The translations under genes were made by a program, and so were the position numbers. A DNA stretch of 64,000 nucleotides, taken from assembly GCA_019973575.1 (NCBI GenBank), contig BPUI01000001.1:1-64000 (forward strand). The letters are read 5' to 3'. Under the pieces are notes generated by a model. That model was not told the DNA's origin, did no database searches, and saw only the letters and a program-made list of their open reading frames with translations. Shown piece after piece: positions 3,237 to 33,647 of this stretch (its first letter is position 1; each line of letters begins with the position of its first letter). The DNA is from Gemmatimonadetes bacterium T265. GTDB taxonomy: Bacteria > Gemmatimonadota > Gemmatimonadetes > Gemmatimonadales > Gemmatimonadaceae.

Positions 3237-4027
3237 TGCCGCCGGACGCCCCCGCCCCGCCCGCCGTCGTCCCGATCCGCGTCCTCGCCTACGACGGCGA
3301 CGCGGCGTTTGTCGTCGAGCGCGCGAGCGCGCCGCCGGTGACCGCGGCGCAGCGTTTCCGCGCGGACGCCGCGCCGGTGGCCGCGCGCGTCGCCGAACAG
3401 GTCCGCGCGGCGCAGAACGTGCTCGCCGGCGCGGCGCTCGACGCGAACGCGCGCGCGGCGGTCGGCGACGCGCTCCGGCGCGCGGTGGTCGCGCTCCGAG
3501 CGCTGGCCGAGAGCTACGAGGTCACACCCGTCGCCGACGTGTGCCGCGCGCGCGAGGCCGGCGCGGCGGCGCTCGACCCGCGCGCGGTCGCCGGGGTCGA
3601 ACACGTGGCAAGCGGCCTGCTCGGAGGAGCGGCTCGCGAGCGGGCGCCGGACGGGGCCGCGCCTAACGAGCCACCGCCGGCCGGCCCGGGCGTCGCCGGT
3701 CAAATGCCTAACGATCCGGCGGCCGCGGACGCCGCGCCCGCGCCGGCGTTCCGGCCGCCGACGGGCCCGGCGCTCGTCGAGCTGCTCGAGCACGGGATCA
3801 CAGGTCTCGAACGCTGGCCCGGAACGCCGCTCGACGTGCCGGCCGTGCCCGCGCCCGCCGCCGCGCCCGACGGGGTCGTCCCGATCGAGGCGTTGTGCTA
3901 CCGCGGCCGGGCCGCGCTCGACCGCGCGCGCGCGGTACGCGACCTGTTGCGCGCCGAGGACGGCGCGCCCGACGCCGCACTCCTCGCCGAGTTGTACGAC
4001 CTGCTCGACCTCGCGGCGTCGGACTGA
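3236..4027 (+). CDS. Hypothetical protein with repeated VVPI-x-L-Y motif
   Basis: A 263-residue protein rich in Ala, Arg and Pro that I do not recognise. A short motif occurs at both ends: VVPIRVLAYDGDAAF near residue 10 and VVPIEALCYRGRAAL near residue 220, each followed by an Ala/Arg-rich helix. Between them lies a helical segment (about residues 35-95) and a Pro/Ala linker. The layout suggests a helical scaffold with duplicated ends, but no function can be given. It starts inside the pdxJ stop codon and ends 6 bases before the flippase-like gene, so it sits in the middle of an operon that continues to ispE. Confidence 0.65.
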   Translation: MPPDAPAPPAVVPIRVLAYDGDAAFVVERASAPPVTAAQRFRADAAPVAARVAEQVRAAQNVLAGAALDANARAAVGDALRRAVVALRALAESYEVTPVADVCRAREAGAAALDPRAVAGVEHVASGLLGGAARERAPDGAAPNEPPPAGPGVAGQMPNDPAAADAAPAPAFRPPTGPALVELLEHGITGLERWPGTPLDVPAVPAPAAAPDGVVPIEALCYRGRAALDRARAVRDLLRAEDGAPDAALLAELYDLLDLAASD

Positions 4028-4033
4028 ACGCGC

Positions 4034-5041
4034 GTGCGGCTCGACTGGAAGGCGGGGCTGGGCATCGTGCTGAGCGCGGTGCTCCTCTGGTGGACGTTGC
4101 ACGACATCGACTTCGCCGCGGTCTGGGGCGTGCTGCGCGCGTCGGACGGCTGGCTGTGGTCGGCGTCGACGGTCGCCGCGACGCTGATCTTCCCGGTCCG
4201 CGCGCGCCGGTGGCGCACCATCCTCGACCCGGTGGTGCCGCGGCTGCCGTTCCGCCCGCTCTGGCGCGCGACGGCGGTCGGGATGATGGTGAACAACGTC
4301 GCCCCGGCACGCGCGGGCGAGCTCGCGCGCGTGGTCGCGCTCCGCCGCGAGCGCCCCGACGTGCCCTTCGGCGGCGCGCTCGCCTCGCTCGCGGTCGACC
4401 GGCTCTTCGACGCTGTCGTGCTGCTCCTGCTGCTGTTCGCGGCGCCGCTCGACCCCGCGTTCCCCGCCGGCGCGCGCGTCGGCGGCTACTCGGTCCTCTC
4501 GATCGGCGAGGGCGGCGTGGGCCTCACGGTCCTGCTGGTCGTCGGCCTCTACGCGGTCGTGGCCGCACCCGACGGCTTCGCGCGGGTGCTCGCCGCGCTC
4601 GCGCGCCGCGTCGCGCCGCGCTGGGAGTCGCGCGCCGCGGGCAGCGTGCGGACGTTCGCCGCCGGGCTCGGCGTCCTGCGCGACCCGCGGCGTTTCGCGG
4701 CCGTCTTCGCGTGGAGCGTCGCACACTGGCTGCTCTGCGCGTGGTCGGTCTGGATCGGCTTCCGCGCGGTCGGCATCGCGGCGCCGTTCTCCGCGGCGCT
4801 CTTTCTCAACAGTCTGCTCAGCGTCGCCTCGGCGATCCCGGCCTCGCCGGGGTTCTTCGGCCTCTTCGAGAGCGTCTCGCGCGTCGGGCTCGCGGTCTAC
4901 GGCGTCCCCGCGACGCGCGCCGTGAGCTGGGCGTTGGGCTACCACATCCTCACATTCGTCCCGATCACCGTGTTCGGCTTCGTCTACCTCGCGCGCCTCG
5001 GCCTCACGTTCGGCCAGCTCGCCGACCGCGGCGACGCGTGA
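4034..5041 (+). CDS. Flippase-like membrane protein (LPG synthase TM domain family)
   Basis: A 335-residue polytopic membrane protein with a GTG start and about eight hydrophobic helices. It belongs to the family that includes the N-terminal part of lysylphosphatidylglycerol synthase (MprF-like, UPF0104). The signature is visible at NNVAPARAGELARVVALRRE and GALASLAVDRLFDAVVLLL, and near the C-terminus IPASPGFFGLFESVSRVGL. Members are thought to move lipids or glycolipids across the membrane; the substrate here is unknown. No soluble aminoacyl-transferase domain is fused. The stop overlaps the ispE GTG start (GTGA), so translation of the two is probably coupled. Confidence 0.85.
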   Translation: MRLDWKAGLGIVLSAVLLWWTLHDIDFAAVWGVLRASDGWLWSASTVAATLIFPVRARRWRTILDPVVPRLPFRPLWRATAVGMMVNNVAPARAGELARVVALRRERPDVPFGGALASLAVDRLFDAVVLLLLLFAAPLDPAFPAGARVGGYSVLSIGEGGVGLTVLLVVGLYAVVAAPDGFARVLAALARRVAPRWESRAAGSVRTFAAGLGVLRDPRRFAAVFAWSVAHWLLCAWSVWIGFRAVGIAAPFSAALFLNSLLSVASAIPASPGFFGLFESVSRVGLAVYGVPATRAVSWALGYHILTFVPITVFGFVYLARLGLTFGQLADRGDA

Positions 5042-6066: not shown

Positions 6067-6079
6067 GTTGCTCGGCGCT

Positions 6080-6150
6080 TGCCCCGTCGTTCAACGGCAG
6101 GACCCTGCACTTTGGATGCAGTGATCGTGGTTCGAATCCACGCGGGGCAA
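6080..6150 (+). tRNA. tRNA-Gln (TTG anticodon)
   Basis: A full cloverleaf can be folded by eye. The acceptor stem TGCCCCG pairs with CGGGGCA, the D arm GTTC pairs with GGAC, the anticodon stem CTGCA pairs with TGCAG around loop CTTTGGA, giving anticodon TTG (codon CAA/CAG, glutamine), and the T arm CGTGG-TTCGAAT-CCACG is canonical. The discriminator base is A and the CCA end is not encoded. It lies between ispE and prs. It was considered as an integration site for the downstream island, but the island uses the ychF 3' end instead. Confidence 0.95.
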
Positions 6151-6212
6151 TACCCCGAGTCCCGGCACGCGAGGATCCTCCCGCGGTCGGCCTCGACGCC
6201 GGTGAGCGACGC

Positions 6213-8624: not shown

Positions 8625-9725
8625 ATGCTCCGCATCGGCATCGTCGGCCTGCCCAACGTGGGCAAGTCGACGCTCTTCAACGCGCTCACCTCCGCCGGCG
8701 TCCTCGCCGCCAACTACCCGTTCGCCACCAAGGACCCGAACGTCGGCCGCGTGAACGTCCCGGACGCGCGGCTCAGCGTGCTGTCCGACGTCGTCACGCC
8801 GCAGCGCACGGTCCCCGCGTCGGTCGAATTCGTCGACATCGCGGGCCTCGTCAAGGGCGCGTCGCAGGGCGAGGGGCTCGGCAACCAGTTCCTCGCCAAC
8901 ATCCGCGAGACCGACGCGATCGTGCACGTCGTGCGCTGCTTCGACGACGACGACGTGCTGCACGTGATGGGGTCGGTCGACCCCGCGCGCGACCGCGAGA
9001 CGATCGAGTTCGAACTCGCGCTCGCGGACCTCTCGGTCGTCGAGAAGCGGCTCGACCGCGCGCGCCGGGCGGCCAAGACCGGCGACAAGGACGCGCAGGC
9101 GGAGGCCGGCGTGCTGGAGCGCGCGTACGCGTACCTCAAGGACGGGCGCGCGCTGTTCGAGGCGCACCTGGGGCCGGAGGACCTCGCGCTGCTGCAGCCG
9201 CTATCGCTGCTGACGACGAAGCCGATCCTCTACGCGGCGAACGTCACCGACGCCGAGCTCACCGGCGACGAGGGGCCGCACCTGCGGGCGCTGCGGGCGG
9301 CGGTCGCCGCGGGCGGCGAGGTGGCCGAGGTCGTGCCGTTCTCGGCGAAGATCGAGAGCGAGCTCGCCGAGCTGCCCGAGGCGGACCGGGGGGAGTTCCT
9401 CGCGTCGTTAGGCCTGGAAAGCGCGGGGCTGGACCGGCTGATTCGCGCCGGGTACCGGCTGCTGGGGCTGCAGACCTATTTCACGGCGGGCGAGCAGGAG
9501 GTACGCGCGTGGACGATCCACCGCGGCGACACGGCGCCGAAGGCGGCGGGGGTGATCCACTCGGACTTCGAACGCGGGTTCATCAAGGCCGACACGGTCG
9601 GGTACGACGAGTTCGTCGCGAACGGCGGGTGGAAGGGGGCGCGGGAGAAGGGGGCGGTGCGGAGCGAGGGGAAGGACTACGTCGTGGAGGACGGGGACGT
9701 AATGTTGTTCAAGTTCAACGTGTAG
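8625..9725 (+). CDS. ychF: Redox-regulated ribosome-binding ATPase YchF
   Basis: A 366-residue Obg-family P-loop ATPase that binds ribosomes. The P-loop GLPNVGKSTLFNAL comes at residues 8-21, FVDIAGLVKGAS is the G3 region, and the C-terminal TGS-like domain ends with the family's conserved GDVMLFKFNV. It follows pth by 3 bases. The last 18 coding bases (9707-9724) are repeated exactly at 33630-33647; this marks the gene's 3' end as the attachment site of the island that follows. The YchF protein sequence is preserved at the junction and the stop here is TAG. Confidence 0.96.
   Translation: MLRIGIVGLPNVGKSTLFNALTSAGVLAANYPFATKDPNVGRVNVPDARLSVLSDVVTPQRTVPASVEFVDIAGLVKGASQGEGLGNQFLANIRETDAIVHVVRCFDDDDVLHVMGSVDPARDRETIEFELALADLSVVEKRLDRARRAAKTGDKDAQAEAGVLERAYAYLKDGRALFEAHLGPEDLALLQPLSLLTTKPILYAANVTDAELTGDEGPHLRALRAAVAAGGEVAEVVPFSAKIESELAELPEADRGEFLASLGLESAGLDRLIRAGYRLLGLQTYFTAGEQEVRAWTIHRGDTAPKAAGVIHSDFERGFIKADTVGYDEFVANGGWKGAREKGAVRSEGKDYVVEDGDVMLFKFNV
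9707..9724 (+). other. attL: left attachment repeat of the island, in the ychF 3' end
   Basis: The 18-bp sequence GTTCAAGTTCAACGTGTA occurs here and, identically and in the same direction, at 33630-33647. Here it encodes FKFNV plus the first two bases of the ychF stop codon. Flanking bases differ on both sides (T/C before, G/A after), so the identity block is exactly 18 bp. An 18-bp match by chance is negligible at this scale. With a tyrosine recombinase gene about 0.7 kb inside, this is the expected layout of an integrated element. Confidence 0.85.
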
Positions 9726-9855: not shown

Positions 9856-10422
9856 TCAGCACGTACGCCGCGAAATCAACGTCGTGGCGACCGCGGTCAG
9901 TGACACGAGCACCTCGAGACGTGAATCCGAGGTCGCGGTGATCCCGATACGCGCAGTTGGGAAGGCCGCCGTGGTCGTGATCGGGGAATCGGCGCCGATG
10001 GGGACGAGCGTCGGTATCGCGGCAGCGAGTTGCGCCACCGCGGCGGCCGCCGCGGTCCGGCCAGCCACGTCCGCATAGATCTCGGCGCGACGCAGCGCCC
10101 GCAGCAACGCCTCGGCCGCAATGCGCGCGGCATCCCACGTTGCTGCGAGATCACCCCGTCGCGCCGCCTCCCCCGCCCATGCGCGCTCGGCGTGGCTCGC
10201 GCGGTGCCGCGCGTCGCGGCACGCATCAATCGCGGTCAGCGTGTCTTCGTACCAGCTGATGCGCTTATCGAAGCCTCCTTCCACGCGCGTTTTCCGGACG
10301 CCATAGCGGTATCCCCCAACGGTCACCACTCCCGCGACGAGCAGCGGCGCTGCGGCCTTGAACCACTCGAGGAACGCCGGGCCGTCCGCCGACGTCGGCG
10401 AGCACGCGACCGGCCCGATCAT
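9856..10422 (-). CDS. Small membrane-anchored hypothetical protein next to integrase
   Basis: A 188-residue protein I do not recognise. After a short N-terminus, a single hydrophobic helix (AAPLLVAGVVTVGGYRYG, about residues 20-37) is followed by a basic stop and a helical, charged region (RISWYEDTLTAIDACRDARHRAS). The C-terminal half is Ala/Thr-rich. The ATG at 10422 overlaps the stop of the integrase remnant by four bases (ATGA), which decides the start and shows that both belonged to one transcript. It is the gene nearest the left attachment site. Between its end and ychF there are about 130 bases without a gene. Confidence 0.65.
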   Translation of the reverse strand: MIGPVACSPTSADGPAFLEWFKAAAPLLVAGVVTVGGYRYGVRKTRVEGGFDKRISWYEDTLTAIDACRDARHRASHAERAWAGEAARRGDLAATWDAARIAAEALLRALRRAEIYADVAGRTAAAAAVAQLAAAIPTLVPIGADSPITTTAAFPTARIGITATSDSRLEVLVSLTAVATTLISRRTC

Positions 10423-11555
10423 TCGGCGGTACGCGCGGCACGTTGGCCGCCGCCGATTTGCTGCGACGCCGCTTCGAGCGCGACGACGCCGTACGTTGTC
10501 GCCGCGTCCGCGTGCTGGTACCCGGTCTGCATAATCGCGAGCGAGCGCCAGCCGCCGGCAGCCATGACGTCTTGTGGCGGGAGGTGCCGCCGCTCGCTCG
10601 CCCGGAGCCGCCGGAGCGCGTGCCACCCGCCCCGCTCCATCGGCGGACGTTCGGCCAGCTTCTCGGCCCGCCGCAGCCAATAGCCCGCGAGCATCTTGTG
10701 CGCGGCCTTCGTGTCGTCGCTGGATGACGGGAAGAGCGGCGCATCGCCGAGCCGCGGGTGCTCGCGGAGGTAGGCGTCGAGCGCGGCGCGCGCGCCCGCG
10801 CTGATCGGGACCACGGCGTCGTACTCGCGCTTGTCGAACTCCTTCCGGAAGCGCAGAGCCCCGTGCGGCCAGTGCGCCGCCGCGCCGAGCGGCTGCCCGA
10901 CCGCGCCGAGGGCCGCCTCCATCTGCGAGCGCGTCCGGAGCACGTCGGAGGCCCGGAGGTTGACGAGCGCGTTGATGCGCCGCCCCGTGTGCCGGGCGAG
11001 CACGACGAGGCACGCGAAGCGGCCGCGCGGGTCGACTGCGAGCGCCTGCGCGCGCGTCGCCGCGTAGCGCCCGTCCGTGGTCACCGGCCACCGCGCGTTC
11101 GTCTCGCGCGGCCGCGTCACCCCCTCGAGCGGGTCCGCGACGAGCAGCGGGCGCCCGTTCACGCGGTGCTGGCGCGCCCACCGCACCATCGTCGCGAGCA
11201 GCTGCACCTCGTTCCGGATCGCCCCGGCCCGCGCGCCGGGTTCCTTCGTGCGGTGGCGCGGGCTCCCGATCGCGCCCGACCGGCGCGCGGCGGCGTAGGC
11301 GTCGACGCGATGCTGCGAGAGGTCGGCCACGGGCAGCGCGTCGGCGAAATGCTGGCCTAACAGCGCGAGCATGCTGCGCACCGTGCGTTGCCGAGCCGCG
11401 CTGAGTCGGGGCAGCCGCTCGGCGCGGTACAGGGCGACGAGCTGCCCCACCGTGAGCGGCCCGACGTAGCCCGCGTGCTTGAGCTGGGCGGTCTGGCGCG
11501 CGAGCGCTTCGGCGAGGCGCGTCGCGTGCGCGCGGTCGGTCGTCTGCAGGCTCTT

Positions 11556-11580
11556 TGAGGTTGCCCCGAAGTAACGGCCG
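11556..11580 (+). repeat. Terminal inverted repeat of the first IS (transposase 3' side)
   Basis: It starts TGAGGTTGCCCCG and ends AACGGCCG. It pairs with 12911-12935 read on the other strand, with four mismatches in 25. Confidence 0.9.
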
Positions 11581-11586
11581 CGTGGT

Positions 11587-12477
11587 TTAGGCCGCCCGCC
11601 GCGTGTCGGCGAGCTGCCGTTTGTACTGTCTCTCGTACTGCAGCGGGCTCACGTACTTCAGCGTCGAGTGTCGCCGCTCCGCATTGTACCACGCGACGAA
11701 CTCGGCGAGCGCGCGGTACGCCGCGGCCCGGGTCGCGAACGCGGCGCCGGCGAGTAGCTCGTGCTCCAGCGTCGAGAAGAAGCTCTCCGCGACGGCGTTA
11801 TCCCAGCAGTCCCCCCGGCGACTCATGCTCGGCCGCATGCCGGACGACGCGAGCACGGCGCGGTACGCCCGGCTCGCGTACGCCGAGCCCCTGTCCGTGT
11901 GATGGATCAGCCCCGGCGGCGGCCGGCGCGCGGCCAAGGCCATGCGCAATGCGGCGAGTGGGCCGGCGGTCGCCAGCGTGTCGCAGGTGGCCCAGCCGAC
12001 GACGCGCCGCGAGCTCAGGTCGAGCAGCACCGACAAGAAGAGCCAGCCCTCGCGCGTGGGCACGGGTACGCCGCAGGCGTACGTCAGGTCGCCGCACCAC
12101 GCGGCGTTAGGCGTCGGGTGGTCGGCCACGCCGAAGCGCCGCTCGAGCAGGTTGGGCGCGACCGGCTCGGCGTGCGCGCTGTCCGTCGTGCGCACCCGCC
12201 GCCGCGTCCGGCGCCCCACCAGGCCGTCCTCGCACATGAGGCGCGCGACGCGCTTCCGGGCGACGCGCACACCCGCGTCGCGCACACCCGCGTCGCGCAG
12301 TTCGCGGTGTACGCGCGGCGCCCCGTAGCAGCCACGCCCCCCGCGGTGCGCCGCCCGCACGTGCACGCGCAGCCGCTCGTCGGCCGCGGCGCGGGCCGGC
12401 GGCGGCCCGGCCGCACGCCGCCGGGCCTGGTTGTAGCCGCTCACGCTCACGCCCAACGCGTCGCACATGAGTCGCAC
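11587..12477 (-). CDS. IS3-family transposase OrfB (DDE catalytic subunit)
   Basis: A 296-residue rve-type DDE integrase-fold transposase that cuts and joins the IS ends. The catalytic residues are visible: D in WCGDLTYACG, D in IHHTDRGSAYAS, and E in WDNAVAESFFSTLEHE. The N-terminal HTH_21-like part (GCYGAPRVHRELRDAGV) contains a short tandem duplication (DAGVRDAGVR) from a 15-bp repeat. The start is uncertain: a GTG at 12477 is used here, but homologous sequence (IAAHRGRFPVRLMC) continues upstream in frame to the OrfA stop. There is no ATG before that point. Confidence 0.9.
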   Translation of the reverse strand: MRLMCDALGVSVSGYNQARRRAAGPPPARAAADERLRVHVRAAHRGGRGCYGAPRVHRELRDAGVRDAGVRVARKRVARLMCEDGLVGRRTRRRVRTTDSAHAEPVAPNLLERRFGVADHPTPNAAWCGDLTYACGVPVPTREGWLFLSVLLDLSSRRVVGWATCDTLATAGPLAALRMALAARRPPPGLIHHTDRGSAYASRAYRAVLASSGMRPSMSRRGDCWDNAVAESFFSTLEHELLAGAAFATRAAAYRALAEFVAWYNAERRHSTLKYVSPLQYERQYKRQLADTRRAA

Positions 12478-12531
12478 CGGGAACCGTCCGCGGTGCGCGG
12501 CGATGGCGGCGTACGAGCGTATGCGTGTCGC

Positions 12532-12870
12532 TCACCGCGACGCCCTCGCGACGTACACCGCCGCACTTGTTACGAAGGCGAGCTCCTGCTTGAGGCGCGC
12601 GACCTCGCGATCGAGTCGCCGCACCTCGTCCGCCTCGCGTGGCAGGCGCCCGTTGCCCGGGCACACATCGGCCGGCGGCGCCCCGGCGCGCTCGGCCGTC
12701 TGGCGCTGCCACTTCCGCAACAGGTCGTCCCGGACGTCGAGCTCACGCGCGATCTGCGTCATGGGCACCCCCGCCGCGCGCCGCTCGGCGACGCGGCGCA
12801 CCGCCTCCACCTTGAACTCGGCCGTGAACCGCCGCCGTTCCCGCGGTCCCTGCCCGTTGTCCTTCGGCAT
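12532..12870 (-). CDS. IS3-family transposase OrfA (helix-turn-helix subunit)
   Basis: A 112-residue OrfA. RRRFTAEFKVEAVRRVAE followed by GVPMTQIARELDV and LRKWQRQT is the IS3-type helix-turn-helix that recognises the element's ends, and EVRRLDREVARLKQELAF is the leucine-zipper segment. It ends in TGA. Unlike the usual arrangement, the downstream OrfB frame is the same as OrfA: the 18 codons after the TGA stay open and read into OrfB (RSYAAIAAHRGRF). A -1 frameshift therefore cannot make the usual OrfAB fusion; read-through of the TGA, or an earlier inactivating change, would be needed. Confidence 0.88.
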   Translation of the reverse strand: MPKDNGQGPRERRRFTAEFKVEAVRRVAERRAAGVPMTQIARELDVRDDLLRKWQRQTAERAGAPPADVCPGNGRLPREADEVRRLDREVARLKQELAFVTSAAVYVARASR

Positions 12871-12910
12871 CCGCCACCTCCGCCCGGAAGCATAGCCGGG
12901 CCTACATTGG

Positions 12911-12935
12911 CGGCCGTTTCAGCGGGGCAAGCTCA
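12911..12935 (-). repeat. Terminal inverted repeat of the first IS (transposase 5' side)
   Basis: Read on the minus strand it starts TGAGCTTGCCCCG and ends AACGGCCG, matching the repeat at 11556-11580. The 3-bp target duplication follows at 12936-12938. Confidence 0.9.
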
Positions 12936-13190
12936 CTTGCGGTCCTTCTGCCCTGCCCCGAGCCGCACCTCGCGATAGATCGCGCCGCCGCGCTCGTAGA
13001 GGCGCACGGCGACGCCGTCCACCTCGACCGTCTTCGTCCAGGGCTTCCGGGCGCGGGGCATGGGCGGAGAAGTTAGGCACGCGCGGGGCTATGCGTAACG
13101 AAACTGCGGCTCTGGCGCATATCGAGCGCCGCAGTCATGTTAGCGCACCGGCATTCGTGCCCCGTCCCCGCCTCCCTTCGCCCCACCCCC

Positions 13191-13930: not shown

Positions 13931-13958
13931 TGAACCGCGCCGGGTTTGGAGGAGGCTC
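13931..13958 (+). repeat. Left terminal inverted repeat of the second IS
   Basis: A 28-bp repeat beginning TGAACCGCGCCGGGTTTG. It pairs with 15245-15272 with a single mismatch (G/C at position 18). Confidence 0.93.
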
Positions 13959-13980
13959 CCAGCCGTGAGAGATTCGGAGC

Positions 13981-15242
<1,262 letters not shown>

Positions 15243-15244
15243 CC

Positions 15245-15272
15245 GAGCCTCCTCGAAACCCGGCGCGGTTCA
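15245..15272 (-). repeat. Right terminal inverted repeat of the second IS
   Basis: Read on the minus strand it begins TGAACCGCGCCGGGTTTC and matches the left repeat at 27 of 28 positions. Confidence 0.93.
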
Positions 15273-17920: not shown

Positions 17921-18538
17921 GTGACGGCCCGCCCACCACGTCGTCCCGCGGCCGCGCCGGCGACGGTCGACGCCGCGTTCGCGCCAGCGTACCAATTCGT
18001 GCTCGCGCGCGAGGTGGGCTGGGCCCACACCCGCACGACCCGGGCGGCCCGACGCTCGACGGCGTCACGCAGACCACGTACGACAGCTGGCGCGAGGCGA
18101 AGCGGCTCCCGGGCCGCTCCGTGCGCGCGATGACGCACGACGAGCGCGCCGCGATCTACGACGGCTACTGGCGCGCGTGCAGCGCCGACGTCGTCGACCG
18201 CCCGTGCCCGCACACCGCGCTCCGCCACTTCGACTGCGCGATCAAGAGCGGGCCGGGCCGCGCCGCGCAGCTCCTCCAGGCAACGCTCGGGTTCGAGGGC
18301 GCCCAGGTCGACGGCCGGATCGGCCCCGCCACGCCCCGCGCCGGCCGCCGGCGCGCCGCCGGGCGGCGACGACGCGCTCGTGCGCACCTACCTCGCCGGC
18401 CGCGCCGCGTTCTACCGCCGCCTCGTCGCCAAGCGCCCGACGAGCGCGGAGTTCTTGCCCGGCTGGTTGGCGCGCCTCCGCCACGTCGCCCGCCAGGTCG
18501 GCGTCCCCGTCGCGCCGGCCTTCGCCGGGCGCGCCTAA
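17921..18538 (+). pseudogene. Decayed GH108-type phage endolysin
   Basis: Three frames joined by two frameshifts give a glycoside hydrolase 108 (ZliS-like N-acetylmuramidase) protein. Frame 1 starts at GTG 17921 and contains AYQFVLAREVGW, where the Glu would be catalytic. A one-base loss near 18035 leads to frame 2: DPGGPTLDGVTQTTYDSW, MTHDERAAIYDGYWRACS, HFDCAIKSGPGRAAQLLQ and DGRIGPAT. A second shift near 18350 leads to frame 3: LVRTYLAGRAAFYRRLVAKR and FLPGWLARLRHVARQVG, then stop. The order and spacing match the family from end to end. It would have cleaved peptidoglycan for phage lysis. Confidence 0.8.
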
Positions 18539-19151
18539 CGTCCTCCCCCCGCCCCGCCATGCTCGGCGTTCTCGCCTCGGCCACACGCCACCCGCGCCCA
18601 CAGCGCCCGCCTAACGCACGTCTACCGCACGTCTAACACCTGCGATCCGCACCGCCCCGGCCGGCTGGGACGAAGGACCCGACGTTTCCGGGAGGCGTGG
18701 CGCCGCGCGCGGCGGCACCGCGACCTCCGCTCGACAGCCTCGTCCGCCCAGCCGCGGGTCCGCCGGAGCTCCCATACACGCGTCTCGATGCGACACGCCG
18801 CGGGCACCCGCGGCGCGGGCCGACCTCCCAGACACAAGACTCGGGTGACACGGACCGCGCCAGCGGCGGCGCTGATTGACAACCGACTCGCCAGGACCGT
18901 GCGCGGCGCGCGGGCCCGAGCCGCCGCCTGCCAGCCGGCGTAGCCGGGCGACGTCGCCGACCGGCGTGGAGGCCCCGATGTCCTGGTGAGGGGCTCCCCG
19001 CGACCTCCGCTCGTAGACGTGGCCCCGCACGTGCGGTGCGTGCCTGACCTGCCGGGCGTGCGGAGACCCCGATGTGTTTGGGAGGCGCGGGACGGCCCGC
19101 CTGGGGCCGCGCGACCTCGGCTCGAAGACGTGGCCCCGCGCCCGCGGGCGG
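18539..19151. repeat. Gene-free stretch with three diverged direct repeats
   Basis: About 610 bases without a convincing gene. Three related copies can be aligned: about 18674-18742, 18968-19034 and 19062-19149. Each has a CC-GA-GT core (ACCCCGATGT in two copies), a GGGAGG-like spacer, the 14-mer GCGACCTCCGCTCG (one base different in the third copy) and, in the last two, AGACGTGGCCCCGC. Spacing is irregular (about 290 and 95 bases) and copies differ by indels, so this is not a CRISPR array. No function is apparent. Confidence 0.55.
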
Positions 19152-20921: not shown

Positions 20922-21305
20922 TCATACGGCGGAGCCGCGCGCGTACCCTCTAGACAAGAACGCGTCGGCGAGGACGAGGCAGCGGCGCCCCGCCTTCCAC
21001 GCGCCGCGGAACGAGGGCTTCTCGGCCAGGGTCTCCGCGCGGGCGTTCGCGAGACTGTTGCCGATCTTCCGGTCCTTCGCCCATGGCGGGATCAGCCCCC
21101 AGCGGAGCACGTCGACGCGGCGCTCGGCCGTGCCGTCGCGCGTCCGGGTGCGCACCGCGACCACGGGCTGCGTCGGCGCGATGTTGTAGCGCGGGACGTC
21201 GAGGACCGTCGCCGCGGCGTCGCTCACCACCGCGGCCCGCGCGGCGCCGATCAGGTCGATCGTGGCCTGCTCGCGCGCGCTCGTGAAGCCGAACCGGCCG
21301 CACAT
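20922..21305 (-). pseudogene. 3'-truncated SRAP/HMCES (YedK-like) gene
   Basis: The first 115 residues match the SOS-response-associated peptidase family, which crosslinks to abasic sites in single-stranded DNA. Visible are the N-terminal catalytic cysteine (MCGRFGFTS), YNIAPTQPVVAV, RWGLIPPWAKD and the active-site asparagine in NARAET. After RRCLVLADAF the sequence leaves the family (normally ADGFYEW) and stops 13 residues later. The second half, with the conserved glutamate and histidine, is missing. Length is 127 residues instead of about 220. The break point is near 20960; nothing matching the lost part was seen downstream. Confidence 0.8.
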
Positions 21306-28491: not shown

Positions 28492-29262
28492 ATGCCTGAG
28501 TCGCCCTCGCCGGACCCCGCCCCAGGAAAGGTGGTCGCCGGCGTCCGCTGGATCCACATCTATGACGACCCCCAGTTGGTGCGAGCGCCAGACGGAACCG
28601 TCTATTCGTCGCGGCCGCGCACGACAACGGCGAGCGACGACCGCGAGTACTACCTCAAGGGCCCTGACGTGAGGGTCGTCGTCGCGGAGGCGGTCGGGTA
28701 CCAACTCGCGGATGCGGTCGGCGTCGATGTCCCCGAGTGGGCCCTCTGCCGCGATCCGGCGAACGGACAGGTGCTCTTCGCGTCGGCGGGCATTCGTGTC
28801 CGCTCTGGACTCGACGTTCTGTTGCACTCCCCGCATACCGCAAACCCCGACCTGCTCGCCCGCTGCATGGCCCTCGACTGCTGGATCGCGAACGACGATC
28901 GGAACATCGGAAGCGTGGTTGCAGAACCGCTGAATCGAAGAAGCGGGGCAGCGCAGCGCCTCTACGCCATCGATTTCGAGCAAGCGCAGGTACTGCGCGG
29001 CACGGATCGATTCACCGTCGCCGCGCGTGAAGTTCGGGATTTCACACCGCGCGGCGTGCTGGCCGACTACACGGCCGGGCTCGGGTTCCCGGGTGCGACG
29101 TGTGCCCGGATCGGGGATATGACAGCAGCCCGCGTGCGCGCCATGTTTGAACTCGTCGAACAGGGCGTCGGCCCGATCGAGTGGGCGGATGGCGCGGCCC
29201 ACTTTCTCGGGCAGCGCGCTGGGCGGATCGAGGCTCTTCTCCGCGAGGTGTGGCATGGCTGA
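28492..29262 (+). CDS. HipA-like kinase (HipA_2 type)
   Basis: A 256-residue compact HipA-type kinase domain without the usual N-subdomain. Features: WIHIYDDPQLVRAPDGTVY, an ATP-site lysine in REYYLKGPDVRVVVAE, the catalytic-loop region LDCWIANDDRNIGSVV near residue 134, and the metal-binding DFE in YAIDFEQAQ near residue 161. In HipA the catalytic Asp is followed five residues later by Asn; here that position appears to be Ser. HipA kinases phosphorylate aminoacyl-tRNA synthetases as toxins; this subfamily's target is unknown to me. The stop overlaps the next gene's ATG by eight bases. The region is visibly less GC-rich than its surroundings, a sign of separate transfer. Confidence 0.78.
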   Translation: MPESPSPDPAPGKVVAGVRWIHIYDDPQLVRAPDGTVYSSRPRTTTASDDREYYLKGPDVRVVVAEAVGYQLADAVGVDVPEWALCRDPANGQVLFASAGIRVRSGLDVLLHSPHTANPDLLARCMALDCWIANDDRNIGSVVAEPLNRRSGAAQRLYAIDFEQAQVLRGTDRFTVAAREVRDFTPRGVLADYTAGLGFPGATCARIGDMTAARVRAMFELVEQGVGPIEWADGAAHFLGQRAGRIEALLREVWHG

Positions 29263-30142
29263 GCAGACGGACATCCAAGATGCCGATGAGCACTGGTACG
29301 CGCTCATCAGCGCGAGTCCGCGCCCGGAGACTGGCGAGTCCGCGAATGTCGGCCTTGTAGTCGGCAACGGAACGGTCGCGTACGTCGATTACCTGCCGCA
29401 CCTGCCACGACTCTGCGGCCTCGCGGCCACGGACGAGGTGCGCGTTTATGAGCAGTTGCTTGCGGCTCTAGCAGAGTCGGTCCGGCGACGCGAGCGTACC
29501 AATGTCGCCGATTTCCCGGCGCTCCTCGGTCCGCAGCTGACCCTGGAGCCGCGTCGTCGACTCTACCGCCAGCCGAACGACAACTTGATTCGACAGATGC
29601 AAGAGCGGTTTCTCGCGGCTGCACGTCCAGGACCACTGCTCGATGGCGAAGATGCGTTAGTCGCGCGATCGGTGGCGCAGCTAGACGAGCAACTTGCCGC
29701 CGTTCGCCGCCGCGGAGTGCTCGTGTACGAGGATGTCCGGCCCCGGTCCCTTTACGAGGGCAAGCTCGACCGCTACGTCCCGTTTCGCGTGCCCAAGTTG
29801 GCGCGGGCACTTCGAGGGGCGCGCGGCGATGTCCTGATCGACTCCCTCGCGATCACTGCAGACGACGACACTAAAGACGTCCGTGCGGTCGCCTTCCGAA
29901 TCGCGCAGGCGTTCTACACTTACCAAGTCTCGCTCAAGCCGATAATCCGCGCGTACGCCGCGCGCGAGATTCGCACCGTTGGAGTGCTCCAGCGATCTTC
30001 GGCACAGGAGTCGATTGATACAGCCGAACTGCGGGAGTTTGTGCGCGATGCCTGGGGGCACCACGGCGAGGTAATCGACGGCAACGCGACGGACGCAACC
30101 GCGGCGCTCGACGCGTTCGCTGCATGGGCTGAAGCTCCGTAG
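29255..30142 (+). CDS. DUF3037 family protein, partner of the HipA-like kinase
   Basis: A 295-residue protein whose N-terminal part fits DUF3037: HWYALISASPRPETGESANV then GLVVGNGTVAYVDYLPHLPR, with the 'aromatic ... E-x-x-NVG' pattern of the family. The remainder is mixed alpha/beta, with LYEGKLDRYVPFRVPKLARA and AFRIAQAFYTYQVSLKPIIR. I recall DUF3037 genes standing next to HipA_2 kinases in many genomes; the eight-base overlap here supports a two-gene module. It may act as antitoxin, target or co-factor, which the sequence does not decide. Codon use is less GC-biased than in neighbours. Confidence 0.72.
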   Translation: MAEQTDIQDADEHWYALISASPRPETGESANVGLVVGNGTVAYVDYLPHLPRLCGLAATDEVRVYEQLLAALAESVRRRERTNVADFPALLGPQLTLEPRRRLYRQPNDNLIRQMQERFLAAARPGPLLDGEDALVARSVAQLDEQLAAVRRRGVLVYEDVRPRSLYEGKLDRYVPFRVPKLARALRGARGDVLIDSLAITADDDTKDVRAVAFRIAQAFYTYQVSLKPIIRAYAAREIRTVGVLQRSSAQESIDTAELREFVRDAWGHHGEVIDGNATDATAALDAFAAWAEAP

Positions 30143-33629: not shown

Positions 33630-33647
33630 GTTCAAGTTCAACGTGTA
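33630..33647 (+). other. attR: right attachment repeat of the island
   Basis: An exact second copy of GTTCAAGTTCAACGTGTA from the ychF 3' end. It is followed by AA, giving TAA in the ychF frame, so excision between the two copies would leave an intact ychF ending FKFNV-stop. There is no coding context here, as expected for a right-hand junction. Confidence 0.85.

Follow-up and report, generated by a model that had tools for sequence, protein, structure and literature searches.

At the left of the window (the whole stretch of 64,000 nucleotides analysed here, from Gemmatimonadetes bacterium T265) lies ychF, a full-length plus-strand GTPase gene (8625..9725; 366 amino acids, with 88% identical ychF genes in relatives), and beyond it, on the minus strand, the two pieces of a tyrosine recombinase gene with an insertion sequence (IS) between them. 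The minus-strand reading that runs from 13061 to 10419 is broken by 1380 bp at 11556-12935. The interruption is flanked by two copies of a 3-bp target-site duplicate that reads CTT on the plus and AAG on the minus strand, copy 1 at 11553-11555 and copy 2 at 12936-12938. When the IS is left out together with one of the AAG repeats, the result is an open reading frame of 1260 bp: 419 amino acids and a stop. The 5' fragment (12936..13061, minus strand, one target duplicate included), as delimited by the reconstruction and by homologs, encodes residues 1-42; the 3' fragment (10419..11555, minus strand), placed by frame reading and alignment, encodes residues 42/43-419. On its own, the 5' piece yields 42 residues and ends there, the IS itself supplying the stop: its first three bases at this end read TGA in frame. 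The 3' piece is open for 378 residues. Neither half contains a stop or a frameshift of its own. The original prediction, which had given these exact coordinates, the 419-residue recombinase to be rebuilt from them and the otherwise intact state of the halves, is confirmed to the base. A small open reading frame of no known family (9856..10425, minus strand) lies between the integrase and the attachment site attL (see below), and overlaps the integrase stop.

Does the rebuilt protein correspond to anything in nature? Database searches with it, including one of 395 genomes of the phylum, retrieved end-to-end homologs that span the join, and the opposite outcome, homologs ending at the IS border, clearly failed to appear. 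The closest, in genome G242, is 49-50% identical over integrase residues 3-400; residue 42 is crossed by over ten further homologs, at 37-45% identity. When 17 proteins are aligned, K/R42 and S43 stand on either side of the join, and the conserved motif to which they belong, R-[KR]-S-L-x-x-x-D-R-x-x-A, is unbroken in 16 full-length homologs; the block conserved over the join comprises R41, K/R42, S43 (16/17), L44, D48, R49 and A52 (17/17). That the two halves might be native separate genes is ruled out, the homologs being single open reading frames. The catalytic residues R234, K283, H353, R356 and W377 are invariant in the 17 sequences and Y387 is present in at least 90%; the 3' fragment of the window's gene retains all six. 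In profile comparisons the rebuilt integrase matches the phrog_1 integrase over residues 5-391 (E=6.5e-23) and scores 22.7 bits against PF00589, under that family's cut-off of 27.1. A search of the PDB by sequence gave no meaningful match, and no relatives were found in IMG/VR or in the phage and plasmid collections. The wide integrase alignment is too little conserved for use in a genome scan; a narrower alignment led to four loci.

The interrupting element (11556..12935, minus strand, 1380 bp) is a member of the IS3 family by its terminal inverted repeats, its target duplication and its match to NF033516. The repeat at the 5' end of the IS as transcribed occupies 12910..12935 and that at the 3' end 11556..11581 (an 85% pair). 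The two ends read TGAGGTTGCCCCG... and, for the other end in reverse complement, TGAGCTTGCCCCG..., alike at 22 of 26 positions; the repeats start with TGAG and finish with CTCA or a CTCA-like sequence. Pfam identifies orfA (12532..12870, minus strand) by its helix-turn-helix (PF01527), and orfB (11587..12477, minus strand) carries the DDE(35) core (rve, PF00665, with HTH_21, PF13276), the D-35-E spacing being read from the sequence; orfB scores 286 bits against the NF033516 IS3 transposase, for which the cut-off is 160. The element thus shares with the IS3 family its two orfs, the OrfA helix-turn-helix and OrfB DDE core, TG...CA ends, a 3-bp target duplication and a length of about 1.4 kb. It departs from the usual IS3 arrangement at one critical place. 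In functional IS3 elements orfB lies in the -1 frame of orfA, whereas here the two share one frame with a stop between them and a -1 fusion is impossible. The cause is an insertion of 10 bp at the orfA/orfB junction (12516..12525, minus strand, its placement ambiguous by a few bases), recognized by alignment with an 81% and a 70% relative of the IS, both of which lack it: because of this insertion orfB stands in the orfA frame, behind the orfA stop, and no -1 OrfAB fusion can be made. Relative to both relatives orfB also has a 15-bp in-frame tandem duplication. The 81% relative has a frame change of its own; the 70% relative, of which the genome holds nine identical copies, keeps the -1 overlap of orfA and orfB. 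(These nine IS3-family copies, each of 1296 bp, lie at L003-L011 on replicons C2, C3, C4 and C5 of G000; C1 has none.)

These features bear on the age of the insertion, which the original prediction had held to be recent. In its strongest form this idea would have the IS still jumping, and the integrase restorable by its precise excision; the 3-bp duplication is perfect and both integrase halves are open, as such a reading would have it. Other data stand against it: the 5.63-Mb genome has a single 81% relative of the IS and nothing closer, no match at E<=1e-100 exists in a sample of 394 other genomes of the phylum, the terminal inverted repeats differ at 4/26 positions, and the 10-bp insertion has cost orfB its -1 position relative to orfA. 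The damage to the transposase largely refutes the notion of an active newcomer, which we judge rather improbable. The window's copy of the IS is probably immobile, as judged from the 10-bp junction insertion and the 15-bp duplication together, and this probable immobility itself argues against a very recent arrival. The claim of recency is accordingly not supported. Conversely, a target duplication that is still intact and integrase halves that are still open speak against great age. One might also ask whether the split is real, IS elements being frequent points of misassembly, and the IS might have been wrongly joined into the integrase. The IS is, however, present in single copy at this level of identity, and the join has clean ends and a target duplication; since there is no near-identical copy in the genome (the closest is at 81%), a misassembly driven by repeats is unlikely, and we consider an artefact of this kind very improbable indeed.

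The integrase stands just inside one end of an island whose ends are new here. An 18-bp sequence, GTTCAAGTTCAACGTGTA, occurs twice in direct orientation: at 9707..9724 (plus strand), where as attL it constitutes the last codons of ychF (FKFNV) and the first two bases of its stop, and at 33630..33647 (plus strand), where as attR it marks the right end of the island. The att lacks a homolog outside the 18-bp core, a point against the account given below. The insertion leaves the ychF reading frame complete. A third site was not found anywhere in the 5.63-Mb genome when up to one mismatch was allowed, and a reversed control gave 0. Some 18-bp repeat did turn up in 8 of 300 shuffles of this GC-rich DNA, but the att repeat appears to be set apart from repeats of that sort by being AT-rich, by its position exactly at the end of a gene and by the adjoining integrase. 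(A tRNA-Gln gene at 6079-6151 was considered as an attachment site and ruled out, no repeat being found there. Viral contigs contain five exact matches to the att core, none of them with ychF or with this integrase.)

Comparison with relatives adds to this. Core genes lie on both sides, ispE, prs, rplY, pth and ychF to the left of 9725 and rpsF and rplI to the right of about 37.6 kb; the distance between ychF and rpsF is 28 kb here, as against 1.0-11.7 kb in 15 relatives, none of which has a related integrase in that interval. About 4 kb separate attR from rpsF, and one gene of this segment recurs in the ychF-rpsF interval of G159. Taken together, the att repeats and the comparison of the ychF-rpsF gap indicate an island that spans about 9707-33647, or about 23.9 kb, in the 3' end of ychF. 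Direct att repeats, an integrase beside one of them, location at the 3' end of a gene and absence from this place in relatives are all seen, and the proposal that the split gene is the integrase of an island is borne out both by the homologs over the join and by these newly found repeats.

The contents of the island offer a glance at its origin. A remnant of a phage-type endolysin (GH108; 17950..18560, plus strand, extent approximate) is recognizable by three-frame reading and by matches to phrog_315 and PF05838/PF09374, and is disabled by two frameshifts. In searches of the main island open reading frames against Pfam and PHROGs for capsid, portal, terminase and tail genes, this endolysin remnant was all that was found, and the island does not amount to a complete prophage. 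A phage origin is suggested because of the GH108 remnant only; the island is probably a decayed prophage or a phage-derived element. A second IS3-family element (13931..15272, plus strand; terminal inverted repeats 27/28) has no visible target duplication around it, so that a deletion may have removed one of its flanks; C4, C5 and C6 carry relatives of it at 85-86%. Two further observations concern the cargo: a SRAP-domain gene at 20922-21305 covers roughly the first half of its domain and no more, and at 28492-30142 a gene for a HipA-like kinase adjoins a DUF3037 gene, with GC about 0.68 and third positions at 0.72-0.78, below the surroundings. The latter two genes look like a separately acquired pair.

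What does the split do to the integrase, and to the island? An AlphaFold model of the homolog L086 places strands at 9-14, 17-23, 30-36 and 39-44, followed by a helix at 50-68; pLDDT in this N-terminal part is mostly 64-85, while the model is poor beyond it (mean pLDDT 52.6, pTM 0.35). The order of these elements is right for an arm-binding domain, a beta sheet plus a helix, at moderate confidence, and the equivalent of the join is residue 43/44. The IS would thus have struck a predicted N-terminal domain, resembling those that bind arm DNA, in its last beta strand. In lambda-type integrases arm sites are usually bound by a beta-sheet-plus-helix domain at the N-terminus, and it is from this that we infer the domain's function here. 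In the 3' piece the first possible start is GTG at 11450, which is residue 77, just past the N-terminal domain; the frame offers no start codon before it, and a promoter scan found no consensus promoter. Started at that GTG, the protein would be reduced to its core-binding and catalytic domains. The likely consequence is that excision is lost: judged from the lambda-type integrases, it should fail with a protein of this kind, and an island whose excision such a protein does not support is most likely no longer self-mobile. That its cargo is thereby frozen in the chromosome, as had been proposed, is plausible.

There is something to be said for the contrary, that the island still moves, excised either by the C-terminal fragment or by another recombinase acting in trans. 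The 3' fragment has, after all, every catalytic residue; the IS and the integrase are transcribed in the same direction, and read-through from the IS could yield a truncated integrase with those residues; and the genome encodes about 15 other tyrosine recombinases. The missing in-frame start before residue 77 and the undetected consensus promoter weigh against the first route. The second is weakened by the dissimilarity of the other recombinases, none of which resembles this integrase at E<=0.001; no other PF00589 recombinase was found inside the island, and the further decay within the island also speaks against its movement. We think continued mobility unlikely.

The preferred history is, then, one of entry followed by stranding. 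The ~23.9-kb island would have come in by means of its own integrase: the tyrosine recombinase whose gene stands just inside attL would have recombined the island's attP site-specifically with the 18-bp core at the ychF 3' end, and ychF was left complete by the integration. Later, an IS3-family element would have split the integrase gene at codon 42-43 and produced the 3-bp duplication, and with the N-terminal domain lost from the 3' piece, self-mobility would have ended. In this account of arrival through a ychF attachment site, splitting of the integrase by an IS and most probable loss of self-mobility we have a high degree of confidence. Inactivation of integrases by IS elements is common and well known, and the event is an ordinary, well-documented instance of it; the tail of ychF, on the other hand, is an unusual site for an island. 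The locus shows cleanly how an IS can strand an island, and for a phylum that has been little studied it establishes one island's limits and target.

How unusual the site is can be seen from the homologs. Among the 26 with downstream sequence, 19 have a tRNA gene within 1.4 kb of the integrase stop, and in 17 of these 19 the two genes are convergent. In two cases long att repeats derive from the 3' part of the tRNA gene: 45 bp of tRNA-Thr in G069 and 51 bp of tRNA-Ser in G016. The tRNA-targeting integrases concerned (L030 in G069 and L033 in G016) belong to the same family over their full length, at 37-43% identity, and like the window's integrase they are encoded convergently with the 3' end of their target gene; the window's island differs from them in targeting a protein gene, ychF, and in having a core of 18 bp in place of repeats of 45 and 51 bp. 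Prophages of Streptococcus pneumoniae also adjoin ychF, on its upstream, promoter side (PMC6375853, PMC10383233). The likeness extends to the shortness of the core, 14-26 bp in the pneumococcus (PMC6375853, PMC10383233); in the window, by contrast, the core coincides with the 3' end of the ychF reading frame.

The closest homolog (L023, in G242, 50% identical) has no tRNA gene in its 19.8 kb; a GNAT gene converges on its integrase gene, the two stops being 9 bp apart. A search of G242 for the corresponding att, a second copy of the GNAT gene end, found none. The ychF att core contains GTTCAAGT, which resembles a tRNA T-loop, perhaps by chance. It is a tentative suggestion, and a rather doubtful one, that in a small clade of integrases from Gemmatimonadota the target has shifted, from the 3' ends of tRNA genes to those of protein genes (ychF; possibly GNAT), perhaps aided by the T-loop-like GTTCAAGT. 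A change of target from tRNA to ychF within one integrase family could help the study of how integrases come to use new sites. Another arrangement in this family is seen at L080 (G116:C66, 2722-5428), where two integrases face each other across a tRNA-Arg gene at 4010-4084.
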